From NCBI GenBank assembly GCA_015956445.1, contig WIUZ02000002.1:868001-932000 (forward strand): a stretch of DNA of 64,000 nucleotides, given 5' to 3'. Below are positions 6,056 through 53,785 of this stretch, in pieces. The notes beneath the pieces were generated by a model, which did no database searches, was not told the origin of the DNA, and saw only the letters and a program-made list of their open reading frames with translations. The stretch is from Thelephora terrestris. Its lineage: Eukaryota > Basidiomycota > Agaricomycetes > Thelephorales > Thelephoraceae. The position numbers were made by a program, and so were the translations under genes. Position 1 is the stretch's first letter, and each line of letters starts with the position of its first letter.

Positions 6056-6989
6056 GGGAAGGGGAGGAGGGCTGGCAACGAATGCGGCATGTGTTCCCGG
6101 TTTTAAGGCTCGCACGGACCAGGACCCAAAAAAATCAGGTACAAAAATGATTCTGAAATTATTCACCCCCCTACCACTGACTTATTTTCCCATCGCCTTT
6201 TCCAGCCTTTTCCCCACCACAATGCACCAAACAGCAAAGCATCTATGCCCTGGATGTGGGCGATTCTTCCTCCCAGGTGGCTACATGAACCATCTAAAGT
6301 TTACCCGTGACCCCCGCTGCAAATCTGTTTGAAAATTGGTTTTTCAACACACCTCACCTTCTCAAATTTTGAACACTCCCATAACCGCCCAACCTTCAGT
6401 CACTCCCTCCTCTCCCATCCCCGGGCCCTCACGCACACCTGAAAACCTTGACCCAGATGTGGAGATGTTGGATAGTGGGAACGAGAACCAGGACCATCTT
6501 CCGATGGATTTGGACATTATCCCACCATCGCCAAGCCAGTCGATTGAGTCCGATGGCAATGGTGCAGTTGAGCAAGGTATTTTTGACAAGTCATTTGCCG
6601 CACGTCCATGCCCTCATCATTAGTTCAGACACAGACTTGGATTTCAGCTCAGACTCGGACTCTGAGTTCGGGTCAGACGCAGACTCCAATTTGTCTGATG
6701 GCAATGGCAGTGAGACCCACCGATCATGCAGTCAGGAACAAATCACGCTGTCTGGTAAGTCACTTGGGTCTTGGGTCTCAGGCAATCAAAAAATCATGCT
6801 AACAACTGTCAGGAACATGGTATTTTTAAACTTTTTATAACACGCTCTTTCTTCGAACTCTTCTTACCCTTTCTTATGTTTGAATGTTTCACACTCCTTA
6901 TCCTTCACACCAATCATTCCAAACACACACACTCGCGTACTATTCCCAGCGAATCCACAACGAGCTATACAAGTGCTATCATCGTCCCA

Positions 6990-8722
6990 TCAGAAATTGA
7001 CTCTATCTACGGCAGGCCTAAAGGTCATCAACTGTCCATCCCGGAGATCGTAGTGCTGGCCCCTCCTCGCAAGGACCTCCCCGAACATGGTGTCACCATC
7101 TTCGGCACTCAGCTGAACGACTAGTTCAAGCCGATAGGAAGAGATGCCTTCGAGCGGACCGATCAGCCTCCCAGATGTCACCGAACTGCTGAACACCTGG
7201 TCCCACATCTCCATCACCGGGTGATTGCTCGACAGCACTATCGACGTAGTCGGCAAGCGACCCTCCGTCTCCCTCATCGGACCCCTGGGTGGGATCCTGC
7301 CTTGCGAGGCAAAGCTGGTGTCGGAGTTGGATCTCGGACTCGACCTGTCGGTAAGGACGGTGGACCCAATATCGGAATCCTCGCTCCTCACCTCGACCAG
7401 ACTGGTCACCATCCGACTCGACTGGCCAAGGGTAAGGATTAGCCGATGCGGTCATACGATGAGCAGGACGGTGTCGAGAGTGTTTGCATCGTTGCCCCTT
7501 AGTCACCGGACGTACCTCGGCGACCCTCGGAGCATCTTCAGCTCGGTCAACCTCCATGACCTCATCCTCGATCTTCACCAACTGGTGGATCGGCTGCAAA
7601 ACGCAGCGCCCACAGTTCTCTTTGTTGGAAGCGGCCAAAGTGGAAGCCGGAGTCGGAACGGGAACCGAGTTCTCGATCGGAGGCATCGCATAGGACAACA
7701 GGTTAGGCAATGGGAGTACCACCTCGTCGGCGTACTCCAACTCGAATGGAACATCGGCTGTCCCCTAACCAACCAATTTGGGACCCTCCTTACAGTTACA
7801 GGTCTTGTCCTGTAAGGACTCGACCTGCGCAGTTAATACCGCCACCACGTTCTCGAGTTCTTCCGTCTAGAAGAAGGTCTTTCAGTTATTGCACAAACTG
7901 CAAAGGCTGAAAGACGACCTTTTCATCTCTCCTGGCCAACGCCCCCTTAATGTTGTTGTCTCGAACCTTCAACCCGGCGATCAACTCCTGATGGTTGGCG
8001 ACCATTGCCTCCAACGCCTCGTTCGTTCCCTGTTGGAAGGCTGCCAAGGTCTCCTTCATCTGAAGACCCTCCGCTGACAAATGAAGGACGTCTGCCTTCG
8101 CCTCCTTCACTTTGCGCTCCAATCGTTCAACCTAGGCAGTCTGATTAGTCGAGAGTCATACTCGAATATTCAGACAGAAAACCTACCCGGCTTTCTCCTT
8201 CCCGAACAAGCAACCACAAGAGACTAGTGGAAGCAGTGGCGTGGCGGACAGCCCTAGGAACGGTCGCTCCGTGTTCCAGCAGGTCCTGATCGTAGATTCC
8301 CCTTTGCAGGGTGTACCAGAGCTCTTTCTTGATTGGATGCTCCAGCTCCCCGAACCTACCCCTCATCTGGAAGGCTACCTTCTCGGCGATTATGGTACGA
8401 ACCCAAAGCTCGTCATCCCAGGTCAACCCCATCAAATGTGGGATGGTCTCCCTGAGACGTTCGGCGTCCACTTCCGTGACGACCTCCAAGATCTAGAAGC
8501 TGTTAGCCTGACATCAACGCCTAAAGAACGTGCCTCTACCTAGAGGAAGGCGTTAGTGCAAACACACGAAGCTCTAGTTCTCCCCCATACCTGGTCATCA
8601 GTGGTATAGGGAGTCCCCGCCGCACAGGCATAGGTCTTGCGATTGGCGGCACGATGGTCAATGCGAGAGATGGTGGAGATGCCGTTGGCGACTTTGTAGG
8701 TATGGTTGTTGGGGAAAGACAT
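6990..8722 (-). CDS. Antisense gene of group 2 unit N1: coiled-coil protein, function unknown
   Basis: Start at 8722 (MSFPNNHTYKVANG), with a TATA box about 70 bp upstream (CTATAAGAAGG near 8790). Several exons lie between short introns: a small basic first exon (8722 to about 8590), a DELW...MRGRF...GIYDQDLL domain (8489-8145), a coiled-coil exon (8122-7886), and a long acidic, proline-rich tail ending near 6990 (MTFRPAVDRVNF). The same domain order occurs in the group 1 genes, with shared DELW, MRG and GIY signatures, so the two groups are homologous. No enzymatic motif is visible. It is a gene of a retroelement fossil. I cannot tell whether this copy is functional. Confidence 0.6.
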
Positions 8723-8787
8723 GTTGGTAAGATGATGGGGAAGTTGCTGGTGTTGCTGATCAAGGATGGCTCCAAGAAGACGTCCTT

Positions 8788-9676
8788 CTTATAGCCTAGA
8801 TCGGTGATCCTTCACGTGACCTACCTCGACGAACCTCATTGGTCCGGGTCACATCAACTTCCGCCACTGTACCATCATCGTTGGCTTACTACATCAAGCT
8901 GACACCTCGGCCTGCGGGACGGCCTTGGAAGAACTTCGTTCCGGAACGCCTAGAACGCGCGCGCACTAAAAATAGGTCTCATGACCTTGACGACCCCTTT
9001 ACGAACCCCCTTTACGACCCTGATGACTCATTTATGACATCATGATAATGACCAACCCTGGACCCTGGAACACACACGTGGGCACAGGGTATCAACATTT
9101 GGACACTGTGCTTCTACTCGGATAGTACCCCTATCTGATCTGGTTGTGCTTTGGAAGCAGAGTAGGCCCGAGCCGAGAACGGCGGCCGAAGAATATAATC
9201 CCTGGTGCCACTTAGGAAGAACGATATTCCCAGGTGCTATGCCTAATCAAGACTAGGTCTGATCAAGCGATTACGGTTGCAACTCCCAGGTTACTGCCTG
9301 TCCGTTGATATCATACCACCTACCGACAACAAGGGATGTGTAGAGTTCCTTCGATCTCTAGCCAACCGCAGAAGCTCAGAGACGGTGCTCACCTGACCCT
9401 TGGGTGTGGTCTAGATTCAGGTACGAACTTTCATGACCCATGCCCCTATTTCTTTTAGGACTAGTGTTATCTTTACCCCTATGTTTCATGCGGACATTTC
9501 TTATCTTTTATGCAATCCTTCACACACTAGTAAGGCCCTTTGTCCTTTAGTCTCCCACGCGTCCCCTTGTTCGCTTCCCTTACTTAGCATTCTCACACTC
9601 CTTATCTCCCTTTGTTCTGGACTTGATAAGGGTATATTAGGGTATTGACGTCATGACCACTCCTTTAGTATAAGTA
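8788..9676. promoter_or_regulatory. Divergent promoter pair of unit N1
   Basis: A minus-strand TATA (CTATAAGAAGG, about 8788-8796) precedes the antisense gene. A plus-strand TATA (AGTATAAGTAG, about 9667-9676) precedes the LTR-type leader. The sequence between, including GGCCGTCCCGCAGG-type GC-rich blocks near 8910, holds no gene. Copy N2 has the same arrangement inverted (13277 and 11701-11714). Confidence 0.5.
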
Positions 9677-11749
9677 GCAACTGTGGCTGTATCGTAGTAC
9701 CTTAGTTTTGTTACCTCAGGAAATCCTCTGCCCTTCTCAGCCCAGTTGCAGTTAAGGCCAAGTCAGAGTTTCTTGTTTGATCCAAGACACCCCCATCTGC
9801 TCTCCCTCCCGCTCTGCGCGTCAACTGCGCCTCGTAACTATAGACTCCCAGCAGTCATATTAGAACACCTCGAGCGTCCAGTCGATCAACTGGTGGAGTC
9901 ATCAATCCTGTTGTAGGGATCAACCCTTGCGTGTTAAACCGAACGAAGTGCGGTTTAGGTTGGGTTTCTCTTTAGGATTTCGACCTGACTTGCAGTGACC
10001 TCGGACAACCTACCGGAAGAATAGAGACGTGATCGTTCTCTCACAAGCTAGTTGGACTAGTGAGTACTCTGCAGAGTCGGCTCAGTGCACTGGTAGTTGT
10101 TGGGGTAGAGTGGCCCTGACAACAACTACTAGCCATCCAGGACTCATCACCTGGCAGATCAAGCAACAAACCTTATGCTGTGAAATTTGGCGGGAGAGCA
10201 GGAGAAGCGGTGAGGAAAGATGATCAACATCTGGCATATGGACAATATTCCCAGGACCTTCAGGGAGTAGACATGCCAAGCGAATGGGCGCCATTCTCAA
10301 CCCGCATGGATTGGGAGGTTGCACATTGGGCAAAACTGCGAGGGCCAAGCTCGACGGCGTTATCGGAGCTCTTAGGAATCAATGGGGTATGTTGTTATCA
10401 TGTCTTCCTCCTCTCCCTTGTTCTGATGCCAGCCCGCATTGTAGCTTGCAAACAAACTTGGTTTATCGTTCTCGACTGCTGATGAGCTCAACCGGGTCAT
10501 CGACAGGAAGCTCTCGAACAGACTTCCGAAATTTGTCCAAGAGGAGCTTACACTTGCTGGCCAGACCTATGAGTTTTACCACCGGGACATAATTCAGTGC
10601 ATTCGTGCCCTCTACGGAGACCCAGAGCTGGCTGGATTACTTGCATATGTGCCAGAGAAACATTTCACCGGGCCAGATAAGAAAACACAAATTTACTCTG
10701 AGATGAACACAGGTAAATGGTGGTGGACACGCCAAGTATGAGTTTTATATGTTGCGGTAGTCACGTGCCTAAACTAACATGATGTGGTACAGGTTGAACT
10801 CGAGGATGAGTTTGGTGGGGTGACAATCATTCCACTTCTTATCTCCTCAGACAAAACTCGGGTTGTCATGTTTGGCACAAAGTCGGCATACCCAGTGTAC
10901 CTCACAATTGGGAACATTCCGAAGGAACTCTGTCAGAGACCATCACGGCGCACTCATGTCCTCCTTGGCTACGTCCCAACAACTTCCCTCCACCATGTTT
11001 CAAGTACTACCTCTCATCGTAGGATGGTCGCAAACCTCTTCCATTATTGTATGTCCCGGATGCTCGCCCCACTGGAAGACCTGGTTAAAGCTGGGCCAAT
11101 TGAGATGACAAGTGGCGATGGGACCGTGCGCCGGACCTTCCCCATTTTTGCATGCTTTGTTGGAAATTACCCAGAGCAGGTGCTCGCTTCTGGGTGCAGT
11201 GCTGGGGACTGTCCTTGGTGTCCTGCAAGACGACTGGAGCTGGAAGACTTTTGTCAGGGCCACTCTACCCCAACAACTACCAGTGCACTGAGCCGACTCC
11301 GCAGAGTACTCACTAGTCCAACTAGCTGTGAGAGAAAGATCACTTCTCTATTCTTCCGGTAGGTTGTCCGAGGTCACTACAAGTCAGGTCGAAATCCTAA
11401 AGGGAAACCCAACCTAAACCATACTTTGTTCGGTTTATCAAGCAAGGGTTTATCCCTACAACAGGATTGATGACTCCACCAGTTGATCGACTGGACGCTT
11501 GAGGTGTTCTATACAATGATCGCTGGGGCTCGATAGTTACAAGGCGCAGTTGACACGCAGAGCGGGAGGGAGAGCAGATGGGGGATGTCCTGTGTTCAAA
11601 CAGAAAACTCTGACTTGTCCTTAACTGCAACTGAGCTGAGAAGGGCAGAGGATTTCCTGAGGTAACAAAACTAAGGTACTACGATACAGCCACAGTTGCT
11701 ACTTATACTAAAGGAGTGGCCATGACGTCCATACCCTGATATACCCTTA

Positions 11750-12473
11750 CACTGGGGGCAGATCCCTACCTACCCGGCAGGCAAAATGAGGGCTTTTTGA
11801 GAGTTTTTCAACAATTTACACAGATTTTACCCAGTAGGTTCATTGTGAACAAATTCAAAACTTACCCACCACTTTGCCCTCAATTTGATCGGCAGGTAAG
11901 TCTTGAAATTGTTCTCAACAAGCTCATCAGTTTGCCCATGAGGTACTTCTTTGACAAAACTCTAAGAGTTCTTTCACAAATTGCACAAAATGTGTCCACC
12001 ACATCATCTGAGCCACTTGCCCAAAGTTCTTTCACAAATTACCCGCAAATTTGCCCACAACATGTTCAATCATGTACACAGTGGGATTGTTGACAGTTTG
12101 TCAAGAAATTGAGCATATTAAGAGTTTGTTGTGATTACATCAAAGAAAACCTGGTGAGTATGTTACTGAGTATGTTGTGAGCAAGTTTTGAAAGAACTAT
12201 TGATGAGTGGCTCAGAGCATGTGTTGGGCACATTTGGTGCAATTTGTGAAAGAACTCTTAGAGTTTTGTCAAGGAAGTACCTCATGGGCAAACTGATGAG
12301 CTTGTTGAGAACAATTTCAAAACTTACCCACTGATCAAAGTGTGGGCAAAGTGGTGGGTAAGTTTTGAATTTGTTCACAATTAACCCACTGGGTAAAATC
12401 TGAACAAATTGTTGAAAAACTCTCAAAAAACCCTCAATTTGCCCGCTGGGTAAGTAGGGGTCTGCCCCCAGTG
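11750..12473. mobile_element. CACTG foldback MITE (724 bp), TSD TTA
   Basis: The element runs CACTGGGGGCAGATCCC...GGTCTGCCCCCAGTG with long inverted arms of about 300 bp. TTA flanks both sides (11747-11749 and 12474-12476). Copy N1 has the uninterrupted target (...CCCTTATCAAG..., complement near 9630), which confirms the boundaries. CACT ends with a 3-bp duplication fit the CACTA superfamily. It is non-autonomous. Confidence 0.85.
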
Positions 12474-14572
12474 TTATCAAGTCCAAACAAAGGGAGATAA
12501 GGAGTGTGGGAACGCTAAGTAAGGGAAGCGAACAAGTATGACGCATGGGAGAATAAAGGACAAAGGGCCTTACTAGCGTGTGAAGGATTGCATAAAAGAT
12601 AATGAATGTCTGCATGAAACATAGGGGTAAAGATAACACTAGTCCTAAAAGAAAGGGGGGGATGGGGTCATGAAAGTTCGTACCTGGGGATCACACCCAA
12701 GGGTCAGGTGGAAACCTCTCATTGCTTTGTGCAATTTTCGAGCAGCTCTGAGATAAGGGACCATGCATCATCTCTTGTTGTCTGTAGGCGGTAACAGCAT
12801 CACGGATTAGTGGCAACCTCAACGTACGTCCGAACATGAGGAGGTCGGGCCTAGACTCATGGGACATGAGGGATTACAGATTCGCCAGTGTTTCATGCTA
12901 GCGGCTACTTCCACATTCGCTTGGCTAAACAAAAGGAGTCTAAGGCACTCCTTCCGAACAACGGCAATTCCTTCCTCCGGTTAGGAGACTGTGATGTGAC
13001 TGTCCACGTGTGTGATCAGGGTCCAGGGTTGGTCGTTATTGTGATGTCATAAATGAGTCATCAGGGTCGTAAAGGGGTCGTCAAGGTCATGAGACCTATT
13101 TTTAGTGCGCGCGTGTTCTAGGCGCTCCGGAACGCAGTTCTTCCAAGGCCGTCCCGCGGGCCGAGGTGTCAGCTTGATGTAGTAAGCCAACGATGATGGT
13201 ACAGGGGTGGAAGTTGATGTGACCCAGACCAATGAGGTTCGTCGAGGTAGGTCACGTGAAGGATCACTGATCTAGGCTATAAGAAGGACATCTTCTTGGA
13301 GCCATCTTTGATCAGCAACACCAGCAACTTCCCCATCATCTTACCAAAACATGTCCTTCCCCAACAACCATACCTACAAAGTTGCCAATGGCATCTCCAC
13401 CATCTCTCGCATTGACCGTCGTGCCGCCAACCGCAAGACCTACGCCAATGAGGCGGGGGTTCCCTACACCACCAATGAACAGGTGGGGTGGAGTTTGAAA
13501 TAATGTTGTGATATTTCTAACTCTTTCCCAATTAGATCGTGGAGGTTGTCAAGCAGGTGGACGCCGAACGTCTCAGGGAGATGATCCCACATTTGATGGG
13601 GTTGACCTGGGACGATGAGCTCTGGGTCCGGTCCATGATCGCCGAGAAGGTGATCTTCCAGATGAGGGGTAGGTTCGGGGAACTGGAGCATCCGATCAAG
13701 AAGGAGCTCTGGTACACCCTGCAGAGGGGGATCTACGATCAGGACCTGTTGGAGCACGGGGCAACTGTTCCTCGGGCCGTCCGCCATGCCACCGCTTCCA
13801 CCACGCTGTTGTGGTCGCTCGTTCGAGAGGGGGAAAGCTGGGTAGGTTTTCCGTTTGGATATTCAAGTATGACTCTCGACTAACCAAACTGCCTAGGTCG
13901 AACGTTTAGAGCGCGAGGTGAAAGAGGCGAAGGCAGACATTCTTTGTCTGTCTGCTGAGGGTCTCTTGATGAAGGAAACGATGGCCAACTTTCAGAAGAG
14001 GACGAACGAGGCGTTGGAGGCGATGGTCGCTAACCATCAAGAGTTAGTCGCCAGCCTGAAGGTTCGGGATGTCAACATTAGGAAGACCTTAGATACAAGG
14101 GACGATCGCCTGGATAGGCACTCGAAGAAGATTGGGGATGAAAGCAGCAAGGTATGCCGCTTTCATCATTCTCTTTGTGAATGATAAAAGCTGACATTCC
14201 CTAGATTGATGAACTCAAGGATTTAGTGTTCGTGTTGACAGCACGGGTCGATTCCTTGCAGGACAAGACCTGCAACTGCAAGGAAGGTCCTGTGTTGGTT
14301 GGACAGGGTACGGCCAATGTTCCGTTCGAGTTGGAATACACCGACAAGGTGGTACTCCCATCGCCTAACCCGTCGTCCTACGCCACGCCTCCGATCGAGA
14401 ACGTGGTTCCTGTTCCAACTCCGGCTCCAGCTTCTACTTTGGCCGAGTCCAACAAGGAGAACTGTCGGCATTGCCCACTGTGGCCAATCAGTCAGCTGGT
14501 GAAGATCAAGGATGAGGTCATGGTTGTTGACCGTGCTGAAGATACTCCGAGGGTCGCCGAGGTACGTCCGGT

Positions 14573-15295
14573 CACTGGGGGCAGACCCCTACTTACCCGG
14601 CAGGCAAATTGAGGGTTTTTTGAGAGTTTTACAACAATTTACTCATATTTTACCCAGTGGGTTCATTGTGAATAAATTCAAAACTTACCCACCACTTTGC
14701 CCTCAATTTGATCAGTGGGTAAGTCTTGAAATTGTTCTCAACAAGCTCATCAATTTGCCCATGAGGTACTTCTTTGACAAAACTCTAAGAGTTCTTTCAC
14801 AAATTGCACAAAATGTGTCCACCACATCATCTGAGCCACTTGCCCAAAGTCCTTTCACAAGTTACCCAGAAATTTGCCCACAACATGTCAATCATGTACA
14901 CAGTGGGATTGTTGAGAGTTTGTCAAGAAATTGAGCACATCAAGAGTTTGTTGTGATTACATCAAAGAAAACCTGGTGAGTATGTTACTGAGTATGTTGT
15001 GAGCAAGTTTTGAAAGAACTATTGATGAGTGGCTCAGAGCATGTGTTGGGCACATTTGGTGCAATTTGTGAAAGAACTCTTAGAGTTTTGTCAAAGAAGT
15101 ACCTCATGGGCAAATTGATGAGCTTGTTGAGAACAATTTCAAAACTTACCCACTGATCAAATTGAGGGCAAAGTGGTGGGTAAGTTTTGAATTTGTTCGC
15201 AATTAACCCACTGGGTAAAATCTGAGTAAATTGTTGTAAAACTCTCAAAAAACCCTCAATTTGCCTGCCAGGTAAGTAGGGGTCTGCCCCCAGTG
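14573..15295. mobile_element. CACTG foldback MITE (723 bp), TSD GGT
   Basis: A near copy of 11750-12473 (CACTGGGGGCAGACCCC...GGTCTGCCCCCAGTG). GGT flanks both sides (14570-14572 and 15296-15298). The group 2 paralogue near 45380 shows the empty site. Similarity to the first copy along the whole length suggests recent activity. Confidence 0.85.
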
Positions 15296-15942
15296 GGTGG
15301 TAACATGGCAGTGTTGTAAACGCTCGCGACGCCGCAACAATCATTGCATGGCTCCCTCAGCTTACCCATACCCTCGTCCAGTTGAGTCGGATGGTGACCA
15401 GTCTGGTTGAGATGAGGGAGGAGGATTCATATCGGGTCAACCATCCCAACTGACAGGTCGAGTCGGAGGTCCAGCATGTGATGATTTCGCCGTTTACCCC
15501 CTTTTAATTCCTTTTATTTAACGCCTCATCACCACTAAGTCAGTTGGTGCCCTGCCCTAAACAAGGCAGTAAACTGTTTATTATGCCATATGCCCTATGC
15601 CTAACGTTTCAAAGTCCAATACGTGGAACGTGCTACTAGTCAAGATACCCCAGAAGACCCGAGGTATAATACGTGAACATGTACCAGCGAACCTTCATAC
15701 GAAGATTCCCCCTACCTGGCCCTCTGTTGCCCCTGGACGACTAGTAGATATTCAGGCTACCGGCAACAAGCGATGTATTAATAAGTGTCGCGCGTTGACC
15801 TCTCGCAGAAGTCAACCAGCTTATTAATCTGACCCTTGGATTGGACTTACGAAAATCATTATGCTTTACGACTCATGGATCATGCACAAAAAGACAAGAA
15901 AGAAGATCAATTCCAAGGAAGTCCAACAGTACAAAAGAGTTA

Positions 15943-17150
15943 TTAATCAATATCTCTGCAAATCCTTTGTACTATTTCCAAGGCCAACCTCACCAACTCC
16001 TCGTTCAACCAGTTCTGCTCCCTAATCTCGTTTGGATCCACGTCCGACAAGTCATCATAATCTGGAAGCTCCGTATCAGAGTTCGGTTCACTATCAGGAA
16101 CGAACTCGGTGTACGGGTCATACTCCAAGGCAGGCCATTGACGACGACTACCCCAAGGAATAGACACGAACTCAGGACGAGGGGTGTCCCTACGGACAAC
16201 TCCCAAGTTCTGGTAGAACTCGTTGCTCCCAATCTCAATGACCTCATCATCAACAGGAACTAACCTGTTCTCGTGACGGACCAACAAACGAGCGGGTGGC
16301 GACTCGGCCCAATTAGGAATTATCGGTGACCAGGCCCGATGCAGAACCTCCAACTCTTCCTCTTCAACTCGGACCTCCGGCTCGTTGCACCTCCTCTGGA
16401 GATCCTGGACCTCTCCGGTCAACTCGGAGACACGACGAGTAAGGCGGACCTAAAGGAATAGGGTTAGAAGATAACAAAAACCTTCAACCCCTACCCCTTA
16501 CCTTATCGTCCTCCAATCCTCCGGTCTTAGTAACCAGAGCCCGGACCAAGTCTTTAAGAGTGGCCAACTCTCCCTTCAACAAATCAATGTCGGCGCCCTG
16601 CCGAACGATACTATCTTCCTGTCCATGGATAACCCCTTGCATATCCTCTTTCCAATTCTCCAGAGCTTCTATCTTCTCGCGACGACCATCAATGCGCTCG
16701 TTGACATGAGCCACTTCATCCATTAACATGGACCCAACGTTCCCCGTATGAAGAATGCTGGCCTCCAACACGGAGTTGAAGGTTTCGTTGGCCTCAGTCA
16801 CGAACTCGACACCCCTATTGAGGAGTTCATTCGCATAAGGGTTAGTCTTGATGCGCGCCAACTTGCACCGAGACACCCTTCGAGCAGCTTGGAGAAAGTC
16901 CCTGAAACCTAAAAGGAGTTAGTTCGCTTTCCTAAAATCGGAATGCGCAACCAGACCCCCCACCTAGATCAGAGAACCCTTCCTTAGGGTCGGCGGTGGC
17001 GGTGCTGTCCATAACAGATCCCAAAGTAGGATAAGGGCGGGAAGGATCACGACGAGCGTGGGAGAAGCGGTCGATGTTGAAGTTACTCTCCTGGACAGGA
17101 GAGTAGGAAGTAGAGCGGCGGGTGGGAACACGAGTTTGAGCACAAGGCAT
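15943..17150 (-). CDS. Antisense gene of group 3 unit H: coiled-coil/acidic protein, function unknown
   Basis: Start at 17150 (MPCAQTRVPTRRSTSYS), ending at 15943 (VQRICRDID). About four exons with short introns: a basic Arg/Ser-rich first exon, a helical exon (about 16870-16510, with LLNRGVEFVTEANETFNS), a short linker exon, and an acidic tail (16440-15943, with DDEVIEIGSNEFYQN and ELPDYDDLSDVDPNE). No catalytic motif. The gene's TATA region is where the hAT-like element landed, so this copy has probably lost its promoter. Close paralogue of 40283-41548. Confidence 0.6.
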
Positions 17151-17219
17151 GTTGGCTGTGCGTGTGTAACAAAGGAGGGTTTGTTGGAAGACCAGTCATC
17201 CAACCCCCTTTGGTTATAT

Positions 17220-20200
17220 CAGCAGCTGCAGCCCAGTCAATATAAATATTAAGCTACTAAACATGACTACATTTATAAAGGCCCATGTTAGATCTGACAA
17301 TTACAATTATTATGCTATGGCTCAGCTGGCTAGCCATTGCCTCGGTTCAGTGGCCAGGTGGGATCTGCTGCCTTGGGTCTGGAGGGGTGATGGATTGATG
17401 GGACAGATCCACTCTTCTGGGTTCTCACCTGGGGCTACTGGTGGGGTTCCAAATGGGGTAATGTGCTTACATAATGAAAAATAAATGACTGCCAATAATT
17501 TCAAATAATTCCATAAAAATTCCAAAAAATGGTAGAAGTTTCCCACGGCCTCTGGAAAGGACAGAAGGAAGAAAACAACCACTGGAGATTTCCAATCAAG
17601 ATTCCCAAAAAGGAAATATTGATAGCTTATATAAGCAATAATATGAGCTATTTTTAGGATGGGATTTCCAAAAGAGAAAAATTTGATAGATTACATAAGC
17701 AGATCATGTGACTTATTTGAAGCAGCATGGGAGTAATTTTGACAGCTTATGTAAGCAGGTCATGTGGCTGATGAGGTAAGTGAGTCATGTGACTTACCAA
17801 AAAAGGAAATTTCCCTTTTAGGAAATAGTTTCCAAAAAAGGAAATTTCTTTTTTAAGAAATTATTTCTAAATAAGGAAATTCTATTTTAGGGAATAATTT
17901 CCAAAAAGAGATTATTTTTAGAACATTATTTTCCAGATTTTTTTTAAAAGAATGATCTCTAAAAATAGAAAATTTAATAATTTGCTTCAAAACCAAAAAT
18001 GATTTTTTTTGGATGTCTTGATGATGCACATAAAAAATGCCTTTGAATAAAATCAGGTTTTTCATTAATTCAGAGAAGTTACACATGTGTGTAACAACAC
18101 CAAACTTATCTGTCATTTTTATCACCTAATAACACATGGTTCTGGTTTGTGGTCCAATTATCCTAACCTAAACCTATCTTAACAAAAATATAAACCTAAG
18201 TCTGTGCCTCACTTGATCCTAGCCCTAATTTAATCCTAAACCCAAACTTGATCCTGAACCTAAACCTAACCCTGTTCTAAACCTAAACCTAGCCTTAAAC
18301 CTGCCCCAAACCTAAGCCTAAACTTAACCCTGCCCTAAACCTACCCATGCCCTAAATCTAACCCTAGACCCAACCATAACCATAACCGTAACCGTAACCG
18401 CAACTGCAACCCTAAACCTAAACCTAGACTAAACCTCAACCTAGACCTAACCTAGCCCTAGGCCTGACCCTGGCTCTAGCTCTAGCTTTAACCCTGCCCC
18501 TAACACTCATCCCAGCCCTAGCCCTAACCCTTGAGCCACAGGAACAAATGAGTTAGGCTGCAGGAATACAATGTGAACCACAATTACCCACACTATGCAT
18601 CCAACTACCACTTAGGTACATCCATCTGCTAGACCCACCAGCTAGTGGGCCTACAAGCCCACAGATTCATACACATGTAGATCCACAACCAGTTTTCTGA
18701 CCAAACCCAACCACAAACCTCACTCCATATTGTACAGAATACTGTGACTTGGGCAATGTGGACAAAAGGCTGGCCACAAGCAGATTGGGAACAAACTACC
18801 ATGTCATAGGTCTACGGGTTTGTAGGCCTATGAGTTTATGGGTCTAATCAAGTAGATGAACTTTCCATCTGTCCACATTGCCCCAAGTCACAGTATTCTG
18901 TACAATATGGAGTGAGGTTTGTGGTTGGGTTTGGTCAGAAAACTGGTTGTGGATCTACATGTGTATGAATCTGTGGGCTTGTAGGCCCACTAGCTGGTGG
19001 GTCTAGCAGATGGATGTACCTAAGTGGTAGTTGGATGCATAGTGTGGGTAATTGTGGTTCACATTGTATTCCTGCAGCCTAACTCATTTGTTCCTGTGGC
19101 TCAAGGGTTAGGGCTAGGGCTGGGATGAGTGTTAGGGGCAGGGTTAAAGCTAGAGCTAGAGCCAGGGTCAGGCCTAGGGCTAGGTTAGGTCTAGGTTGAG
19201 GTTTAGTCTAGGTTTAGGTTTAGGGTTGCAGTTGCGGTTACGGTTACGGTTATGGTTATGGTTGGGTCTAGGGTTAGATTTAGGGCATGGGTAGGTTTAG
19301 GGCAGGGTTAAGTTTAGGCTTAGGTTTGGGGCAGGTTTAAGGCTAGGTTTAGGTTTAGAACAGGGTTAGGTTTAGGTTCAGGATCAAGTTTGGGTTTAGG
19401 ATTAAATTAGGGCTAGGATCAAGTGAGGCACAGACTTAGGTTTATATTTTTGTTAAGATAGGTTTAGGTTAGGATAATTGGACCACAAACCAGAACCATG
19501 TGTTATTAGGTGATAAAAATGACAGATAAGTTTGGTGTTGTTACACACATGTGTAACTTCTCTGAATTAATGAAAAACCTGATTTTATTCAAAGGCATTT
19601 TTTATGTGCATCATCAAGACATCCAAAAAAAATCATTTTTGGTTTTGAAGCAAATTATTAAATTTTCTATTTTTAGAGATCATTCTTTTAAAAAAAAATC
19701 TGGAAAATAATGTTCTAAAAATAATCTCTTTTTGGAAATTATTCCCTAAAATAGAATTTCCTTATTTAGAAATAATTTCTTAAAAAAGAAATTTCCTTTT
19801 TTGGAAACTATTTCCTAAAAGGGAAATTTCCTTTTTTGGTAAGTCACATGACTCACTTACCTCATCAGCCACATGACCTGCTTACATAAGCTGTCAAAAT
19901 TACTCCCATGCTGCTTCAAATAAGTCACATGATCTGCTTATGTAATCTATCAAATTTTTCTCTTTTGGAAATCCCATCCTAAAAATAGCTCATATTATTG
20001 CTTATATAAGCTATTAATATTTCCTTTTTGGGAATCTTGATTGGAAATCTCCAGTGGTTGTTTTCTTCCTTCTGTCCTTTCCAGAGGCCGTGGGAAACTT
20101 CTACCATTTTTTGGAATTTTTATGGAATTATTTGAAATTATTGGCAGTCATTTATTTTTCATTATGTAAGCACATTACCCCATTTGGAACCCCACCAGTA

Positions 20201-20437
20201 GCCCCAGGTGAGAACCCAGAAGAGTGGATCTGTCCCATCAATCCATCACCCCTCCAGACCCAAGGCAGCAGATCCCACCTGGCCACTGAACCGAGGCAAT
20301 GGGTTCACCTGACCAAGACGATGGATCAGATATCTGCTCACGAAGCAACAATGTAAATGTGGGATTAGACATGACCATTTAAAAAGGTTGTGTCCTTTGC
20401 AAACATGAATCAATATATTTTTTGGGCTGCAGCTATT
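17220..20437. mobile_element. hAT-like giant foldback element with telomere-like repeats
   Basis: Ends are CAGCAGCTGCAGCCCA and its near complement TGGGCTGCAGCTATT(G). GGTTATAT occurs on both sides (17212-17219 and 20438-20445), 7 or 8 bp depending on how the shared G is assigned. The empty site is seen in copy I near 40218. Most of it is a palindrome (about 17335-20301, centre about 18820) with arms near 1.48 kb and few mismatches. No transposase is encoded. CAG...CTG ends and an 8-bp duplication point to hAT mobilisation. Confidence 0.75.
17335..20301. repeat. Near-perfect 3-kb inverted repeat with interstitial telomere-like arms
   Basis: The left arm opens with CCATTGCCTCGGTTCAGTGG and the right arm closes with its complement. 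Inside, 18165-18540 is CCTAAACCTAACCC-like and 19100-19475 is the TTAGGTTTAGGG-like complement. The spacer is about 18765-18876. Outer arm parts are rich in AAAAAGGAAATTT and GTCACATGA motifs shared with the foldbacks at 45664 and 56911. Open frames within the arms mirror each other and are not genes. Confidence 0.8.
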
Positions 20438-23202
20438 GGTTATATACCAAATGCCACGCCCCCTTCACGACTCAGGAGTTGAGTCATCCTTTCTATTGTT
20501 TACTGCGCATGACCCACATGACATCATATGCCCCTATTTCTTAGTCATATGCTCCCCTTTTGCCATTGGCTGTTAGTCAGTCATACCCACATTCCTTCCG
20601 AACATTCCCATGATACGTCATGCTTTGTAACTGCTTTATAATGCTCTCAAATTGCTATTGGCCGCCACACTTTTGTTTATCAGCTGATAATTTGTAGCAT
20701 TAGTCACCACGTAACGCACAGACCATGCAGTGCTGTGCACGGACCATGTTTGTCTGTGTTTGTATCATTAATGTAGTTACATGTCACTGTCACGTCACAA
20801 ATCTAAGTAGTATATATACTCAGAGTAGTTTAGCTTGTACTCCTTAGATTTGTTATCATCAGACTCTCCGTGACCTCTACTGATGTGTGCTTAGAGCAAG
20901 AGTGCCTGAAGACCCTTGTCTCCTTCTTTCTCCTTCTCTCCAATCTAGTCTGTGAAGAGATTTCCGATATCCCTGGGTTTGCAACAAGGGGATTACTGTG
21001 TGTTTGACCCTTGAGTGTGAAAGGTTTGGATAGCAAGAGTGCTATTGAACTGTAGAGGTCGCGTCGGCCTGACACAGCATAGGCACCTCACCTGACTCGC
21101 AGTACAGGATCCCAGCCAGGCCTCTGATGAGGGAGACAGAGGGTCACTCTTCGACTACGTCGACAGCGCTGCCGAGCAGTCACCCGGTGATGGAGATGTG
21201 GGACCAAGTGTTCCGCAGTTCGGTGACATCTGGGAGGCTGATTGGTCCGTACGAAGGCATCTCTTCCTATTGGCTTGAACTAGACATTCAGTTGAGCGTG
21301 GAGGACGGAGACGCTATGTTCGGAGAGATCCTCGCGAGGAGGGGCTGGTTCTTCGATCTCCGGGATGGAACACTGATGACCATGAGGCCTGCCGTAGATA
21401 GAGTCGACTTTTGACAGGACATTGATAGCACCGTATATAGCCATGTTGTTCCGATTTGCCGTGAATGGATTGTGCGTTGTGTGTGTTTTGAATGATGGTT
21501 ATGAAGGATAAGGAGTGTGAAGCATTCAAAACATAAGAAGTGGTAAGAAGAGTTCGAAGAAAGAGCGTGTTATAAAAAGTTTAAAAATACCATGTTCCTG
21601 ACAATTTTAAGGAAGATTATCAATTTCGAGACCTTGCAGAAATTTTGGAGGCGTTGTCCATTTTCAAAGACGATCCCGCTGGCTACAGCGCTGCCTGTTC
21701 CAAAGCCGGGATAAAGCCCATCGTCCACCCCTTCTGGCAGAACCTCCCCTATTCAGACATTTACCTTGGAATTACCCCCGACATTCTCCACCAACTCTAC
21801 CAAGGGGTTATGAAGCACCTCCTGTCTTGGGTTACAACTGCCTTCAGAGAGAAAGAAATCAACACTCGTTGCCGGTGCCTCCCCCCAAATCACAACATCC
21901 GAGCATTCTCTAAGGGAATCACGTCCCTTTCACGGGTGACTGGAAAAGAGCATGCCGATATGTGTCGCATTCTTCTTGGGCTAGTCATCGACCTTAAACT
22001 CCCAGGCAGCACTTCCCCAATTTCCCTCATCAGCGCTATTCGCTCACTTCTTGACTTCCTCTACCTTGCACAATATCCCCTACATACCTCCGAAACCCTT
22101 CGACTTCTGCATGAGTCACTCGAACGATTTCACGCAAACAAACACATCTTTGTCGACCTTGGTATCCGTAACGATTTCAACCTCCAAAAGCTGCACTCCC
22201 TTGTTCACTATGTCAATTCCATCAAATTATTCGGGACTACTGATAATTATAACACAGAGTACACAGAACACCTCCACATCGACCTGGAGAAGGACGCGTA
22301 CCGGGCAACAAATCACAAGGATGAGTACGCACAAATGACAGCCTGGTTGGAGCGAAGGGAAAAGATCCTTCAGTTTGAGAGTTATCTCAAATCACGTCTC
22401 AACACCCGACCAACAATTCTCCTCCAATCCACGGACATGGCCTACAATGGGTCCCTTACCTTGACGAAGTGGCCATCAGCCCGGGCGGTCGACTTAGATT
22501 GCATCACCAACAATTATGGTGTGAAGTTTTTCCGAGAAGCCCTCCGCCACCACATTGTCCTTGCACGACACTCTGGCCCACTGCTCACAAGGAATCAAGT
22601 TGAATGCCAGATCCTGTACATAAACCTCCCCTTTACAACCCTCTCTGTGTTCCATAGGCTCAAATTCACTGCCCCGGGTGACACAACCATGGCAAAATGT
22701 GTCACCCTGGACTCGATTCATGCCCGGCCACAATTGCTGACAAAGAAGGGGAAAAAAGTTCCAGCCCGCTTTGACACGGTCCTCTTGAAAGTTGGTTCAG
22801 GTGAGGAAGTGGGCATGCAAGGTGCGCTTCACGAACTCTCGCGGCTCACACTTTGCTCAACGTATGTACAAAGGTTACCATGTGGGCCAGATTCGAGTAA
22901 TCTTCACTCTGCCAGCTGGTGTGGATGGTGTTTCAACTGAACCACTCGCATACATCGAATGGTTCTCCAAGTTCACAACTCCTGATCCAAATCACCAAAT
23001 GTTCAAGCTGAACCGAAGCCTAGATGGCGGGGAGCGGGTAGTGAGTATTGACCCTGTGTCAACAATTCAGCGAAGCGCCCATCTCTTCCCAAAGTTTGGC
23101 CCAGTTGTGCCAGAGGGGTGGACTTCAAATAACGTGCTCGAGAAGTGTAGCACCTTTTATCTCAACCCATTCACGGACCGACATATGTACTTTACCCTCT
23201 AA

Positions 23203-26996: not shown

Positions 26997-29014
26997 TGGT
27001 ACACCACACTTCAAGATATCTTACAGTGGTTCATCCAGTCGATGCAACATTTGCTACATCATCACGTGCAAACTGTAACAGAAGAGTTGCGGTGGCCCAA
27101 TTCATCCCAGGACAAGCCTCCATGAGCTCATTCCTGTCTGTGAAAATTTGAGCCTCTGGGACCAGATGGTGAACTCGAGTTACTCCAGAATCAGTGAGCT
27201 TTCCCAAGAACTGGCCAAAGTTATGGTTGTCGATGTTTCGGGGACCGTGATCAAGGCTCTCGAGCCAAGCATCCAGTTTTGGGTAAACAGCAGGGTTATT
27301 GAAAAAGATGGGAACAGATGATAACTTGGGTCGTTTTCGAGGAGAGGATGACTGAGATTGAGACCGAGATTGGGAGCGAGAGTAAAGACGACTGGATGAG
27401 TTATTCTTGATGAATTCCATGAGCAGTAGTTCGCTGGTTGATGTGGAAGGAGCGAGACCAGAACCAGTAGTTGGCTGTTTTGTTAATGCCCTGACAGATG
27501 GTCGTTGCTCAATTTGTAAGGATCCAGGTGGATTGTCGAGTGTTGCATGCCCAGCAGTCTATGATAAGTAAGTCATAGTATGGAATGTAGCAATGGGGAC
27601 ACAAACTATCATTGTAGACCATATGCCCAGATCACCATGCGAGAGGGCCTTGTGATCAGTGTCAGATACAGCATAGCATAAGCGCGAATGGGTGGGGCAT
27701 GTATATCGTGATAAGAGAACACTCAGGTGTTCCCCAGCACCCTTTTCGGATGGCTCGTCTTCTTCCTCCAGAGGTCCCTTTGCTAAAGCATTTTTCTTGG
27801 ATAATCAACAAAATCAGGTTTGTGAAGGAGAAAGAATATATACACCTATACCTTTCCCTTCATGACAACTGTCTTCTCATGAGTCTTCCTGCCCGAGTCA
27901 ACAAGTATCACCCGAAAAACATCCCTGGATTTTCCCTTCTTACCCTTCCCCAACGAATTCCCTCGTTCACAAATCTGGGTCACAGCATCATCCTTCATCC
28001 TGATAAATGCTGCAGGTGTACTGAGGATTTGTGGGACTTCGCGTTGAGGGTGCGTTGAGAACTTGTAGCCAAGCTTCAGATCCTTGATGTAAAGAGTCAT
28101 CGCAGTGCACATCTCCTCCTGGAACCCGACCCAAGAAATCAAACTCGGAAGAGTGATGCTATCCACCATACCACCTTCTGCAGGATAGTCGAAGATAATA
28201 TCAATACCTGGTAATATGTGAGTAGTGTTTTCTCGTATCAACTTGACTTGCCTCTTACCATCGGTTGTGTCAGGGTTGTGGGCCTGCTTACTGTTTGTGG
28301 GGCGCTAGAGGATTAGAGGACGGGTGAGGTGTGTCGGGTCTAACTTGGAAGGGGGTTCCGGGGGTGGAAACGAGAGGAGGAGGTATATCAAGAAAGAGAG
28401 GTGACTCTGTCTGATAAGGGTGGACGGGTGAGTGATAGTCTTGGCAGAACTGATTGAGTTGCTGCACAAACGGTTCGAAGTCTTGGTTGCTAAGGTGTTC
28501 GAAGTTGACGAGATATTCTATAACCGAATAAGGTAATTCAGTTGGTATTTCCCACCAAAGAACGATAATAGCAGGGGAGTGGGTATGGATATTAGTAGTA
28601 AGATGGATTCATGGGCTGGGGAAATAGAATGCCGGACTTATACTGAAATAGACAGTCGCTAAGACGCTTTCAGTAAAGTCGGAGTTCCAAAGGAACTGAT
28701 GACCTGCGCCCAATAAGAAGGGAGGAGTGGTGACTCCGGCGTCGAGGGCTGCAAAGGGTCGATAGTAAGGGAAGTGAGTGAGTAAACCGGCGGTTCGGTT
28801 TACTTGAAGACTTCTAATGAGTTTATACTCCCAGATAGATCTCCTAGCGTCAGGGACGACTGGTCACTGAACTGGGCTTGTAGAGGGGAAAGGGTTGGGG
28901 GCGTTGAACATACACTGGCAGGAGAATTCCTCAGCTTACTTTGTTTATTCGAGTTGTGGGTAGAGGAGTACAGAAGAGATTGAGAATGGGGAAAAGAAGG
29001 AGCGAACGCTCTTC

Positions 29015-29440
29015 CTTATATACCCAAGCCTCTACAGGAGTCATTATTCTACTGCGGACCAAACAGGGATCAACATGGTCTGTGCGTAGTTTAGGGTAGG
29101 GTAAATGAGTCAGGGAATTGGAACTTTAGACCGGCGAATGATGAATGTGAAATAGGGGAATAATAGCGAGTGAGTCATTAGGAGTACAATGGGGATTTCT
29201 CACGTTTCATGGTAGTAATAGAAGGCTAGTGGGGATTTCCCATGATCGATGGGGATTTCTTTCGTTTCATGGTAGCAATAGAAGACTGATGGGGATTTCT
29301 CATGATCGATTGGGATTTCTCAGGATTTAATGGGATCGTGATTGGGGCTGAGGATTCGTTTGTCCTAATTGGGATTTAAATGGATAATGGTTCATTGTCT
29401 TCCCCTTTCGTCGTCCTATTGAGTTAGTCGTATATAATCC
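29015..29440. promoter_or_regulatory. Bidirectional promoter with tandem GAAATCCCCAT motifs
   Basis: Between the leftward TATA (about 29015-29023) and rightward TATA (29430-29438) lie five to six copies of GAAATCCCCAT (as ATGGGGATTTC), spaced about 25-45 bp with CATGAAACG-type spacers (29188-29335). The same array stands at 47885-48035 and 52660-52800. It looks like an activator-binding array shared by two divergent promoters. Confidence 0.55.
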
Positions 29441-29530
29441 TGGGGATTATTGGTCTTTTTCCTCCCATCGTCTCTTTTCCCTTCCCACAATTACCACTAC
29501 CACCCTCTCCTCTAAACACCCTCTACTACT

Positions 29531-30440
29531 ATGTCTGCCTTCGTTGCCAACAACGCTGCGCTCAACGCTGCCGCCATCCCCTTTGACTTCTCTCCGTCCT
29601 TTGAGACGGACGCTCCCTTCAATGTGGAGCAACACCTATGCGATACCCCCGCCAACATTGCTCATGACAATCAGGTAGCCGTGAATTTCCTGACCGCTCA
29701 CAATGCCCCTGCCGAGTTCTGGGAACAAGCCAGGTATGAAGACCCCAGGTCTTCTAGGCCTCGTGTTGAAGCTGCTCACTCTGGAGCCGTACTTTTGTTG
29801 GACGCTATGGAGAGGGAGAGAGAGGATCGGATTGCGAAACTGGAGAAGCGTGTGGACCTCATGTACGTCATCGTGAATAGTCTGAATGATGACTTCTCTC
29901 ACTTTGCTTTGGAACATTGGGGACCTTTCCAGGCATCTCTCTTCCGATATTTCGGACATCAATGTCGGGGAGCTTATTGCACCGACCCCCCTTGCAAGTC
30001 CCCAGTCATCCCTTCGCCGCCACCAGGATCAGGGCGTTCCTGTCCCTCCATCCCCTCCCTGGAGTCCTGTCCCAGTTTGTCAGATGGTGGAGAGGTCCCA
30101 GAAGAAGAAGAACCGCAAGAGTCCGATGACTCATTCTGGTCAACGTTGTCGTCCCTCCGACAAGTCACGTCAGGTTCGGATGAAGTTGAAGGTGGAGGTA
30201 GCGAGTCTTCAGGACCGCTATGGGTTCGCGTTAGTGAGCGAGGCGTTGATGGACGTGAAGCGGGAGATGCATGAGAGTCTGTTTCACGATGTGTTGGGAT
30301 GCAGAGAGTGTTGGCAAGACCCGGTAACTCAGGTTTACTCGTACTGTCCTCAGAGCGTACACAACCCTCACCACTTCGCTCATTGTTGCCCGTTTCCCCA
30401 GGACTGTACTTGTGACGTAGATCCTTTTGTCCTGGTTTAA
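29531..30440 (+). CDS. Antisense gene of group 4 unit: two overlapping long frames, function unknown
   Basis: The first frame starts at 29531 (MSAFVANNAALNAA) and runs to 30274. It has a helical N-terminus (VAVNFLTAHNAPAEFWEQ), a short coiled coil (EREREDRIAKLEKRVDLMY), and a Pro/Ser/acidic tail. A second frame is open from 29886 to 30440 and ends in a Cys/His-rich segment (LGCRECWQDPVTQVYSYC...DCTCDVDPFVLV). Both frames recur open in the copies at 46799-47696 and 48611-49520. How they are expressed cannot be told from sequence alone. A TATA lies about 95 bp upstream. No family recognised. Confidence 0.6.
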
Positions 30441-30811
30441 GTTTGTAATATTTGTTAGTTCTCTTTGTACTATTATTACTACTACGAATAAGACCAATGT
30501 CTTGGATTATCTGTGTGATTTTGAACAATATGTCACGTGTTCGTGACAGGTTGGGCGTTCACCCGGAACATCATCATTATCTTCCTCTTCAGAGGAAGAA
30601 TCCCTAGCACGCTTCCGTTTGGTGAGGCGCGTTGGTGTGACGTCGGCGTGTATCTCTTCGTCGGTCATTGAGAGCTCCTCAGCATCTTCTTCCATGCTCT
30701 TCCTGGTTTTTTCAATGGTTTTATCATTTGCCGGCCTTCTCTTGTTTTTGTTATTCCCCATGTTGATCTGTGACAATTCCGTGTGAGAACAATGAAGCTG
30801 AGATTAGAGAA

Positions 30812-31585: not shown

Positions 31586-31841
31586 TGTCAGCGTGCTGAA
31601 TTTTACCCTCTTTTTACACCATTTTCACACCCAACTTTCGCTCACTTTCCTTACCTATACCCCTTTCTTATCTTATCAATTCCCCTTATCACGACTCCCA
31701 CGTCATCCAAAAAGGCACAGATGATGACACAGATGATATTATATTGGGCGCATCCACGACAAAGACACGAGACGACCAACCGACGGAGTTGAATCCGCAC
31801 GGACTCTATGGACGAGGACTAAGGCGTACAAACCCTAGTCA

Positions 31842-34329
31842 TCAAGACCTGGTCTGCCAGTACTCCTCAGCACTGGCAACCTTCTCCTCCTCCGTCCCCT
31901 CCGAGGCACTCTCGACAGTTTCCTCATCGACCATCTCGACAACCCGAGCTTCCTCCAGACGATGAGCCACGGCCAGCTGAACTTCGGCGCGAAGGCAGTT
32001 CCTCGCTGAATCAACCATAGTCTGATCCTGAGTCCTCTGCGCTGACCACCCTTCCACTCTCTCGGTCAGTTGAGTCACCAGCCTCACAGCCTCCGCTGCA
32101 CGCAGGACCGTCGAGAGCGTAAGGTTCATCAACTCGTTCACGTCGACGGACTCTACCGGGATTAGCTCGCCGCAATCCAGGCGACACTGCAACATCGTCG
32201 CGTCGGAATAGGACGGTGGACTCGATGTCTCCTCCCTGTCGGACGACGTTGGGACTGCTGGGGCACATTCGATGGGCTGGACGGCGAGCACCGTTGTAAG
32301 GGACCCATCGATGAGCACGAATGGAACACTGTCACTGGGGACAAGGGGTCAAATACCTGGTGGGTACATGCTGAACACATTGTGATCACAGTCAACAAGT
32401 GATCACAATGTGCCCAGTGGGCAAATTTTGATTGTGATCACAATGTACCCATCAATGTGATCTCAATGTGCCTGCTGTGCACATTTTAATTTCTTTCACA
32501 ATGTTCCCATCAATGTGTTCTCAATGTACCCAGCTCATTACATAATGGTTTCTTTCACAATGTTGTCCACAATGTGTCCAGCATGTGGCTGAGCCACTCA
32601 TCCAAACTTTTTTCACAAAGTACCCAGTGATGTGTCTAGAATGTGTACAGCCATACACATAGTGATTTCTTTGAAAGTTCATGGTGAAATTGAACAATAT
32701 TGAGATTACATTGTGATTACTTCAAAAAGAACCCCCTGGGGACATTATGGACACATTGCTGGATAATCTTTGAAAGAAGTTTGAATGAGTGACTCAGCCA
32801 CATGCTGGACACATTGTGGACAACATTGTGAAAGAAACCATTATGTAATGAGCTGGGTACATTGAGAACACATTGATGGGAACATTGTGAAAGAAATTAA
32901 AATGTGCACAGCAGGCACATTGAGATCACATTGATGGGTACATTGTGATCACAATCAAAATGTGCCCACTGGGCACATTGGACTCACATGGCCAGGCACA
33001 TTTTGAATGTATTCAAATTTCCCCCACTGGGCACATTGTGATCACTTGTTGACTGTGATCACAATGTGTTCAGCATGTACCCACCAGGTATCTGACCCCT
33101 TGTCCCCAGTGTATCCATGCACCGGAGAGATTGAAGGAGGTGGAACTGGAATGGCCACCTCATTCTCCCCTGCGTACTCCAACTCGGGTGAACTACTAAC
33201 CGGGTTGACCACTGTTTCCTCGGACGTCTCACAAACAACCTCCTCCCCGCCATTGGTATGCACCGGCATGTGGTACAAACCGCCAGAGGCTGGCAAAGCC
33301 ATCCTGTCCGGAATCGACTCGTCCTCAGACTCGTCACGGACGGCCGCCACCGAACGAGTGCGGCAATGGCACAACCGCTCGCTCATGGATTCGACCCGAG
33401 CACCCAGCAGGGGCAAAGTGTCGTCCAACGTATCAACCTAAGAAGTGGAATGAGTTTCCTCCGACAACTACGGAGGAACATCACGCCAACCTTGGTGTCC
33501 AACTCGTTCAAAGCCCTTCTATGACGATTGAGCCGTCGGTCGACCTCAATCAAGTCCCTCTGTATGGTGTCGTCTCGTTCCTTCAGCGACTCGACCAATT
33601 GGTTGTGTTCCTCCTGCATCGCCAGCATCTCACTCTTGAACGTCACACAAAGCGTATCGTTCATCAAGAGGAGAGTCTTCTTGGTGTCTAGCATCTCCGA
33701 GTACACCCTGCGAGCATCGTCCTTTGCTTCCTTCACCTCGCGCTTCAAACGTTCATTCTACAAAAGCCAATCAGTGTTATCCCACAGGCGGGATGCACAG
33801 ATCGGCTCACCGCTTTCTGTTCTGTCCGCAATAGGAACCAGAGACGGTGACCAATGGCTGCTGTGTAGTGTTGAGAACGAGTAGCTCCAGGCCACCTTCC
33901 TTCGCCATTTCCCAGGTCGTAGATTCCCATCCGCAGAAGACCCCACAACGCTGACACCACAGGAGTCTCCCACGGCATGCGCAGCTCAGTATTGAAAGTC
34001 ACCCCACGCATTGACTCTTGCAGCTTGTGGTCGATCAAGTTGTGAAACCACAACTCGTCATCCATGGTCAAGTACTTGGGAGGATTGACAATCGTTGCCT
34101 CCAGTTGACGAGCATCCACCTGGTCGGTGACTGCAAAGATCTACGAATGCGATGTCAGTTGACGCCAACAACCAGCGTACGCATGACAACGCGCCTCTCG
34201 ATAACTGGGGTACGCCACACTGGGAGCAGGAAGAAAGTATCCCTTGTTTCCTACGGATCGTGGATCCGCAGACTCGATGGTAGCAGTGCTGTTCTCAGCA
34301 CGGAAGACACGATCAGAGATCATGGGCAT
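31842..34329 (-). CDS. Antisense gene of group 1 unit G, interrupted by a MITE
   Basis: Starts at 34329 (MPMISDRVFRAENSTAT). Exons by short introns: first exon to about 34190, a DELWFHNLIDHKLQ...GIYDLGNGEG domain (34119-33790), a coiled-coil exon (about 33756-33500, KREVKEAKDDARRVY), then a long acidic exon from about 33437. The MITE at 32333-33111 splits this last exon, and the tail (EGTEEEKVASAEEYW) ends at 31842. Homologous to the group 2 gene. No catalytic residues. Fossil gene with an insertion. Confidence 0.6.
32333..33111. mobile_element. CACTG foldback MITE (779 bp), TSD TGT/TAT
   Basis: Runs CACTGGGGACAAGGGGTCA...TGACCCCTTGTCCCCAGTG with long inverted arms rich in ACAATGTG. The flanks, TGT and TAT, are a 3-bp duplication with one difference. 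The empty site is seen in the group 1 copies at 50430 and 60590. Fragments of this subfamily occur at 865, 2839 and 35960. Confidence 0.8.
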
Positions 34330-49520: not shown

Positions 49521-49701
49521 AGTAGTAGCAGTATTTGAGAGAGGAGAGTAGTAGTGGTGGTTATGGGAGGAGAAAAGAGGCGATGGGAGGAAAAGACCAA
49601 TAATCCCCCTGAATTATATACGGCTGACTCAATAAGAAACCAAAAGGGGGAGACAAAGAATCATGAACCATTCAACGCCAGATTAGGATAAACGAACCCT
49701 C

Positions 49702-53731: not shown

Positions 53732-53785
53732 GCAGGCCTACAACCCTGACACCTTGACGCTAGAGTCACTACTCCTCCCTTCTTA

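Follow-up and report, generated by a model that had tools for sequence, protein, structure and literature searches.

Giant long terminal repeats of Ty3/Gypsy chromoviruses in Thelephora terrestris with a predicted spliced gene on the antisense strand

The stretch of DNA analysed here (the window) covers 64,000 nucleotides of contig WIUZ02000002.1 (positions 868,001 to 932,000) in the 40.6-Mb assembly of the fungus Thelephora terrestris and contains a set of large repeat units, each with an intron-containing gene on the antisense strand. Comparing the 64-kb window with itself revealed several repeat families, mutually nested and broken up by other insertions, and by their start positions the units belong to family A (6807, 11252 and 44317), B (15477 and 39590), C (28268, 43376, 46694 and 48515) and D (31586, 49702 and 54460). 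Families A and D are the long terminal repeats (LTRs) of Ty3/Gypsy chromoviruses, and the antisense genes are, judged by their codon patterns, protein-coding and under purifying selection.

A preliminary description of the window had given the units TGT...ACA ends and 5-bp target duplications. Identical 5-bp flanks were found for nine of the ten units tested, the tenth (11252-21603) having ACTTT and ATTTT, equal at four of five bases. The proposed boundaries of these ten units are real, with starts corrected from 39600 to 39590 and from 46695 to 46694 and with an end at 30548 for the unit starting at 28268. Ten units are listed here by position in the window.

6807..10121, + strand: unit A1, a solo giant LTR of 3315 bp, duplication ACAAC (from its flanks; family A is a chromovirus LTR)
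11252..21603, - strand: unit A2, a family A LTR broken by unit B1 and palindromic insertions, flanks ACTTT/ATTTT
15477..21074, + strand: unit B1, within A2 and itself split at ~17220-20435, duplication CAGCA
28268..30548, - strand: unit C1, 2281 bp, duplication GGTTG
31586..35251, + strand: unit D1, holding an inserted palindrome, duplication GCAGT
39590..42013, - strand: unit B2, 2424 bp, duplication GGGAA
46694..54231, + strand: unit C2, split by C3, duplication CTGAC
48515..53751, + strand: unit C3, within C2 and split by D2, duplication CCTTG
49702..52624, + strand: unit D2, 2923 bp, within C3, duplication CCCTC (family D is a chromovirus LTR)
54460..61323, - strand: unit D3, split by a large palindrome and other insertions, duplication ATATC

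The motif TGTCAGG occurs 28 times in the window compared to a mean of 11.69 (standard deviation 3.39) in shuffled sequences, and none of 100 shuffles reached 28. Outside the window 10 of 12 family A copies showed perfect duplications in a check of their flanks; of the remaining two, one belongs to a full-length element, as its left end, and the flanks of the other are unlike.

As a test of the LTR character, the preliminary description had named copies in which two units flank an internal gag-pol region, and such copies were found for families A and D but, among the best-scoring 150 exon places of each, no convincing one for B and C, which make up six of its twelve units. The full-length copy of family A consists of two identical 3300-bp units (3300/3300) around 5996 bp with gag and pol and has CTGCC at both outer sides, and that of family D of two 2934-bp units with two differences (2932/2934) around 5829 bp with gag and pol, with GTTTT at both outer sides. 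The A pair, 9.3 kb apart and in the same orientation, was found among 40 scored A places of 475 candidates. In both elements RVT_1, RT_RNaseH, Integrase_H2C2, SH3_Tf2-1, Chromo and zf-CCHC were above the Pfam cut-off, the integrase core rve being above it in A (34.5 vs 32.6) and below it in D (27.5), and a chromodomain (PF00385) follows the integrase (60.6 bits in A, 45.7 bits in D). When comparing A and D, pol is 63% identical and gag 29%. A genome-wide scan for rve, with 150 of 155 candidates scored, gave 144 matches; none of the matches listed lies in the window. When these were set against the best-scoring 150 antisense-exon places of each family, eight integrase matches for A and three for D lay, correctly oriented and at the right spacing, between two units on the same strand. 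At one locus (L041, G000:C23:1036800-1046700) two A elements stand in tandem with one LTR in common, the exon places being 9310 bases apart, twice.

The proposed sense promoter could be placed by its TATA box at window position 9669 in family A and 52153 in family D, in each case shortly upstream of a match to the element's own primer site.

9669..9676, + strand: TATA-like box of the A1 sense promoter
9703..9714, + strand: predicted start of R in A1, where 12 bases pair with the primer site that follows the 5' LTR in the full-length copy
52153..52160, + strand: TATA box of the D2 sense promoter
52188..52198, + strand: predicted start of R in D2, an 11-base self-priming match

In A, LTR position 2882 of 3300 is matched by complementary bases 3-14 past the 5' LTR, and in D position 2490 of 2934 by bases 3-13; the two sequences differ, yet each is complementary within its own element. 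In Tf1-type self-priming the primer site pairs with the 5' end of the RNA of the element itself, as set out in PMC4600332. Since a match of this type falls 34-35 bases downstream of the TATA box in both A and D, the RNA is predicted to start there, which would give a U3 (the part of the LTR upstream of R) of 2881 bp in A and 2489 bp in D.

The antisense gene sits inside this U3 in families A and D, has a putative promoter region of its own upstream and short introns, and ends with a stop codon before the LTR end. Its exons are given below, with the ratio of non-synonymous to synonymous change (dN/dS) within the family for A.

8783..8796, - strand: TATA-like box of the A1 antisense gene
8591..8722, - strand: A1 antisense exon 1, dN/dS 0.11
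8188..8492, - strand: A1 antisense exon 2, 305 of 306 bases aligned, dN/dS 0.07
7919..8131, - strand: A1 antisense exon 3, coiled coil, dN/dS 0.04
7218..7866, - strand: A1 antisense exon 4, approximate model end, dN/dS 0.14 in the first part and 0.27 in the later part
6992..7144, - strand: A1 antisense last exon (tail), dN/dS 0.21 with 0% stops in one frame among 32 sequences
29531..30437, + strand: C1 antisense gene, pieces 29531-29731, 29795-30145 and 30180-30437 with approximate splice points
40283..41545, + strand: B2 antisense gene, exons 40283-40468, 40526-40858, 40914-40985 and 41039-41545
50413..51701, - strand: D2 antisense gene, exons 51567-51701, 51185-51514, 50867-51133 and 50413-50814 onward, with a probable further 3' exon

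The gene proposed in the preliminary description proved real at the codon level in all four families, both by dN/dS and by a control of the reading frames. When 14 copies of A were aligned, five antisense-strand stretches showed changes clustered at every third position, in a phase that differs from one stretch to the next. Pooled pairwise dN/dS was 0.04-0.14 in A, 0.06-0.11 in B, 0.07-0.19 in C and 0.07-0.11 in D for 14 of 15 exon pieces, copies with insertions or deletions being left out (the D piece E4a had no second ungapped copy and B E4 is one pair). When all six frames were compared in the 13 pieces with at least three sequences, the predicted frame was the lowest (0.04-0.19) with at most 0.7% stop codons, the mirror frame gave 0.12-0.36 with stops in 12 of the 13 pieces, and the four remaining frames gave 0.73 or more.

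Splice sites were counted in A, B and D, and the counts may include some places twice. GT-AG is kept at three A introns in 31/31, 35/35 and 38/38 copies and at two B introns in 5 and 7 copies (the cut for B intron 1 was off by one base). In D one of nine donors differs at intron 1, and GT-AG is present in all 8 copies of intron 2 and all 7 of intron 3. TATA-like boxes lie 73 (A), 66 (B) and 100 (C) bases upstream of the antisense ATG. Variation within the A LTR is ~1-5% per phase both at the RNA-start/U5 end (antisense 1-720) and in the putative antisense promoter (1081-1440), and 13-18% in the spacer between them (721-1080). In the window copy A1, antisense exon 4 is interrupted by a single premature stop. 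For a part of this exon (antisense 2642-2900 in copy L026) the continuing exon frame gave a dN/dS of 0.27 vs 1.12 in the frame of some database models; a joint use of two frames in the last exons of A was considered and rejected, there being one selected frame per stretch. For the last exons of D the values were 0.70, 0.51 and 0.72, from three sequences only.

The four homology groups of antisense genes suggested beforehand are reduced to three, A and D being homologous and B and C having no detectable relation to them or to each other. The A and D proteins align over ~280 residues (BLASTP E 4e-32, hhalign 99.2%), and the first three introns of the two genes are at matching places. BLASTP gave no significant match of the B and C proteins to the other families or to each other. 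In searches of the protein collection, in each of which the best 8000 candidates by common words were scored, the only match outside T. terrestris was a weak one to a metagenome protein (P0072, E 6e-4). No homologue of the antisense proteins was found in Pfam over the cut-off, in PHROGs or among PDB sequences. A profile search gave 74 proteins among the matches listed, all from T. terrestris; for A, 257 member sequences fall into 71 T. terrestris clusters, where the same protein may recur from several sources, and the D protein clusters have 51, 9 and 1 members. Pfam assigned no transposase domain to the antisense proteins of A and D, a family scan of B and C, covering exon pieces only, gave no family, and no bZIP was among the Pfam matches of P0007 and P0073. 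The AlphaFold2 model of the A protein has a mean pLDDT (per-residue confidence) of 48.8 and a pTM (whole-model confidence) of 0.23, the sole confident feature being a 118-residue helix at 125-242 with the rest of low confidence. The protein would be a long coiled coil with disordered flanks.

When changes private to one copy were compared with those shared between copies, dN/dS was 0.29 vs 0.12 in A and 0.13 vs 0.02 in B. The private changes are thus less constrained than the shared ones, which fits selection while the element is active and decay after insertion. Among the best-scoring places, in lists that favour intact copies, 125/150 (A), 142/150 (B), 131/150 (C) and 146/150 (D) were stop-free.

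Families B and C may likewise be LTRs, by analogy with A and D in their ends, 5-bp duplications and layout; TGT...ACA ends and a 5-bp duplication were found in all five B and C units of the window and in two further units in C45. Their exon places were taken from the best 150 of 257 candidates for B and the best 150 of 394 for C. Two candidates for complete elements were rejected, namely full-length C elements from three pairs ~10.2 kb apart, with no common element at the ends of the internal stretch, and a B element with a short internal region from two B units 2.8 kb apart, which have the separate duplications TACAC and GATGT.

The window also harbours other insertions. Fragments of a Plavaka-type transposase (PF18759) lie on the + strand at 10784-11359 and 21645-22940, and palindromic foldback elements of ~500-785 bp with ends or near-ends CACTGGGG, several of them sitting in units, are found at the following positions.

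11749-12474: palindromic foldback element
14573-15295: palindromic foldback element
32331-33115: palindromic foldback element
36492-36993: palindromic foldback element
55374-55874: palindromic foldback element

A single palindrome (97.9% over 2.98 kb) makes up almost the whole 3.2-kb insert within B1 (17219-20436), which has a target duplication of 9-10 bases, TTGGTTATA(T). A second near-perfect palindrome of 2.9 kb (97.8%) lies within D3 at 57098-59999, and a palindrome of 477 bp (61324-61800) begins exactly at the D3 end.

Among known systems, the sag gene of mouse mammary tumour virus is a protein gene within U3, on the sense strand and without an antisense promoter; the T. terrestris units resemble it in having a gene in U3 and differ from it in the strand and the antisense promoter. 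The LTRs of Tf1-type elements are much shorter than 2.9-3.3 kb, and it is LTRs of this length, with a spliced antisense gene in U3, that set A and D apart from the Tf1/sushi chromoviruses. The likeness to the latter (Tf1, Tf2 and Tj1) lies in a Ty3/Gypsy pol with SH3_Tf2-1 and chromodomain, the 5-bp duplication and a candidate primer site that would pair with the predicted 5' end of the element's RNA (PMC4600332).

Antisense additional open reading frames (aORFs) between pol and the 3' LTR are described in PMC7264820 for Grande (gene23), RIRE2, Retand, PvRetro13 and the Botrytis element Boty (brtn), and like the T. terrestris gene they are conserved in most copies and without known homologues or function. 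These aORFs are however internal and lost in solo LTRs, while the gene in T. terrestris does not occupy that position (aORF-3R) but lies inside the LTR and has introns; the terms 'intron', 'in the LTR' and 'within the LTR' are absent from the text of PMC7264820. The retroviral antisense genes hbz and asp are driven from the 3' LTR, according to PMC10186651, and share with the units an antisense promoter in the LTR, which in the units is predicted, hbz being spliced and encoding a nuclear regulator. Their coding regions are however mostly outside the LTR, and HBZ is a bZIP protein (PMC10186651), a domain for which P0007 and P0073 gave no match. Among the listed texts from full-text searches of open-licence papers, none describes an antisense gene that is spliced, lies within an LTR and persists in solo LTRs. 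On that literature, what appears new here is an antisense gene within the LTR, with introns and retained by solo LTRs, antisense genes in the internal region being already known.

The units are very probably giant LTRs, mostly solo, of self-priming Tf1/sushi-type Ty3/Gypsy chromoviruses, with a U3 that holds an antisense spliced gene for a presumably trans-acting protein. The sense RNA would start at R and prime itself. Because this RNA would carry the gene solely as its complement, the introns could not be spliced from it; they would go unrecognised and survive replication, and the antisense gene would be copied intact into both LTRs. Recombination between the LTRs would delete gag-pol and leave behind both promoters together with the entire gene, a complete expression cassette. 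Since selection is strongest on shared differences and weaker on private ones, the antisense protein most probably serves the element in trans, possibly in regulation of LTR transcription, in anti-silencing or in a nuclear step, the function itself being a guess.

Several observations weigh against this explanation. Equally long self-priming matches were found in 2/2000 shuffled LTRs for A and 8/2000 for D, and in 3/793 other windows of the internal region for D (0/793 for A). A TATA box upstream of the D antisense ATG was looked for and not found, and a database gene model for A reads part of exon 4 in the unselected frame (dN/dS 1.12). Among the best-scoring 150 exon places each of B and C there were no integrase-containing pairs at the expected spacing; a C pair on C17, 13.5 kb apart, encloses an rve in the same sense, at 2.95 kb from the gene and not at 7-7.8 kb, and in the three C pairs ~10.2 kb apart the ends of the internal stretches have no common sequence.

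B and C could instead be LTR-only passengers that lack a coding internal region of their own and move by means of proteins from A, D or other elements. This agrees with the lack of any convincing full-length element among the 150 best-scoring places of each, while their genes are selected, and with the two adjacent B units that have each their own duplication (TACAC and GATGT), but full-length copies are rare in A (8) and D (3) too, recombination to solo LTRs together with extinction gives the same counts, and the scoring covered only the best 150 candidates, out of 257 for B and 394 for C; we consider it unlikely. An equally small chance is given to the wider proposal that the solo LTRs are mobile, intron-bearing gene cassettes which keep producing a trans-acting protein once gag-pol is gone, hundreds of them forming a dispersed helper pool for the full-length elements that remain, with B and C spreading as such passengers. 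It is quite improbable that the gene is a captured host gene working for the host, the solo copies being kept as a dispersed gene family: many solo copies are stop-free in the counts given above and their private changes still have a dN/dS below 1, but these changes are less constrained than the shared ones, as expected if copies decay after insertion, and apart from the weak metagenome protein P0072 all matches are from T. terrestris.

A DNA transposon with short inverted ends (TGTCAGG...CCTGACA), a 5-bp duplication and an antisense gene for a transposase or helper would explain that most copies are single, that A has 7-base inverted ends and that B and C are found only as single units. Set against it are the identical or near-identical pairs of A and D around gag-pol, the single duplication around the whole element, the self-priming match and the A and D antisense proteins without a transposase domain; for A and D it is ruled out by the two-unit copies, and as an account of the units it is very improbable. 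Finally, the antisense region might matter as RNA rather than through a protein, by forming double-stranded RNA, by silencing or by interfering with the sense promoter, as a U3 antisense transcript would complement the 3' part of the genomic RNA, a role discussed for plant elements in PMC7264820. Selection at the codon level, with 0.04-0.19 in the predicted frame vs 0.73 or more in the four non-mirror frames, disfavours RNA as the sole function and makes this extremely unlikely, though an additional role of the RNA beside the protein may exist.

With the units read as giant LTRs of self-priming chromoviruses, a position within the repeat and antisense to gag-pol would be a simple means of keeping an intron-bearing gene in an element copied by way of RNA. 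Solo LTRs, usually seen as regulatory debris, would become carriers of selected protein genes, and a block of T. terrestris 'hypothetical proteins', otherwise mistaken for species-specific genes, would be explained. Functional tests in the yeast models of Tf1-type elements would also become possible.

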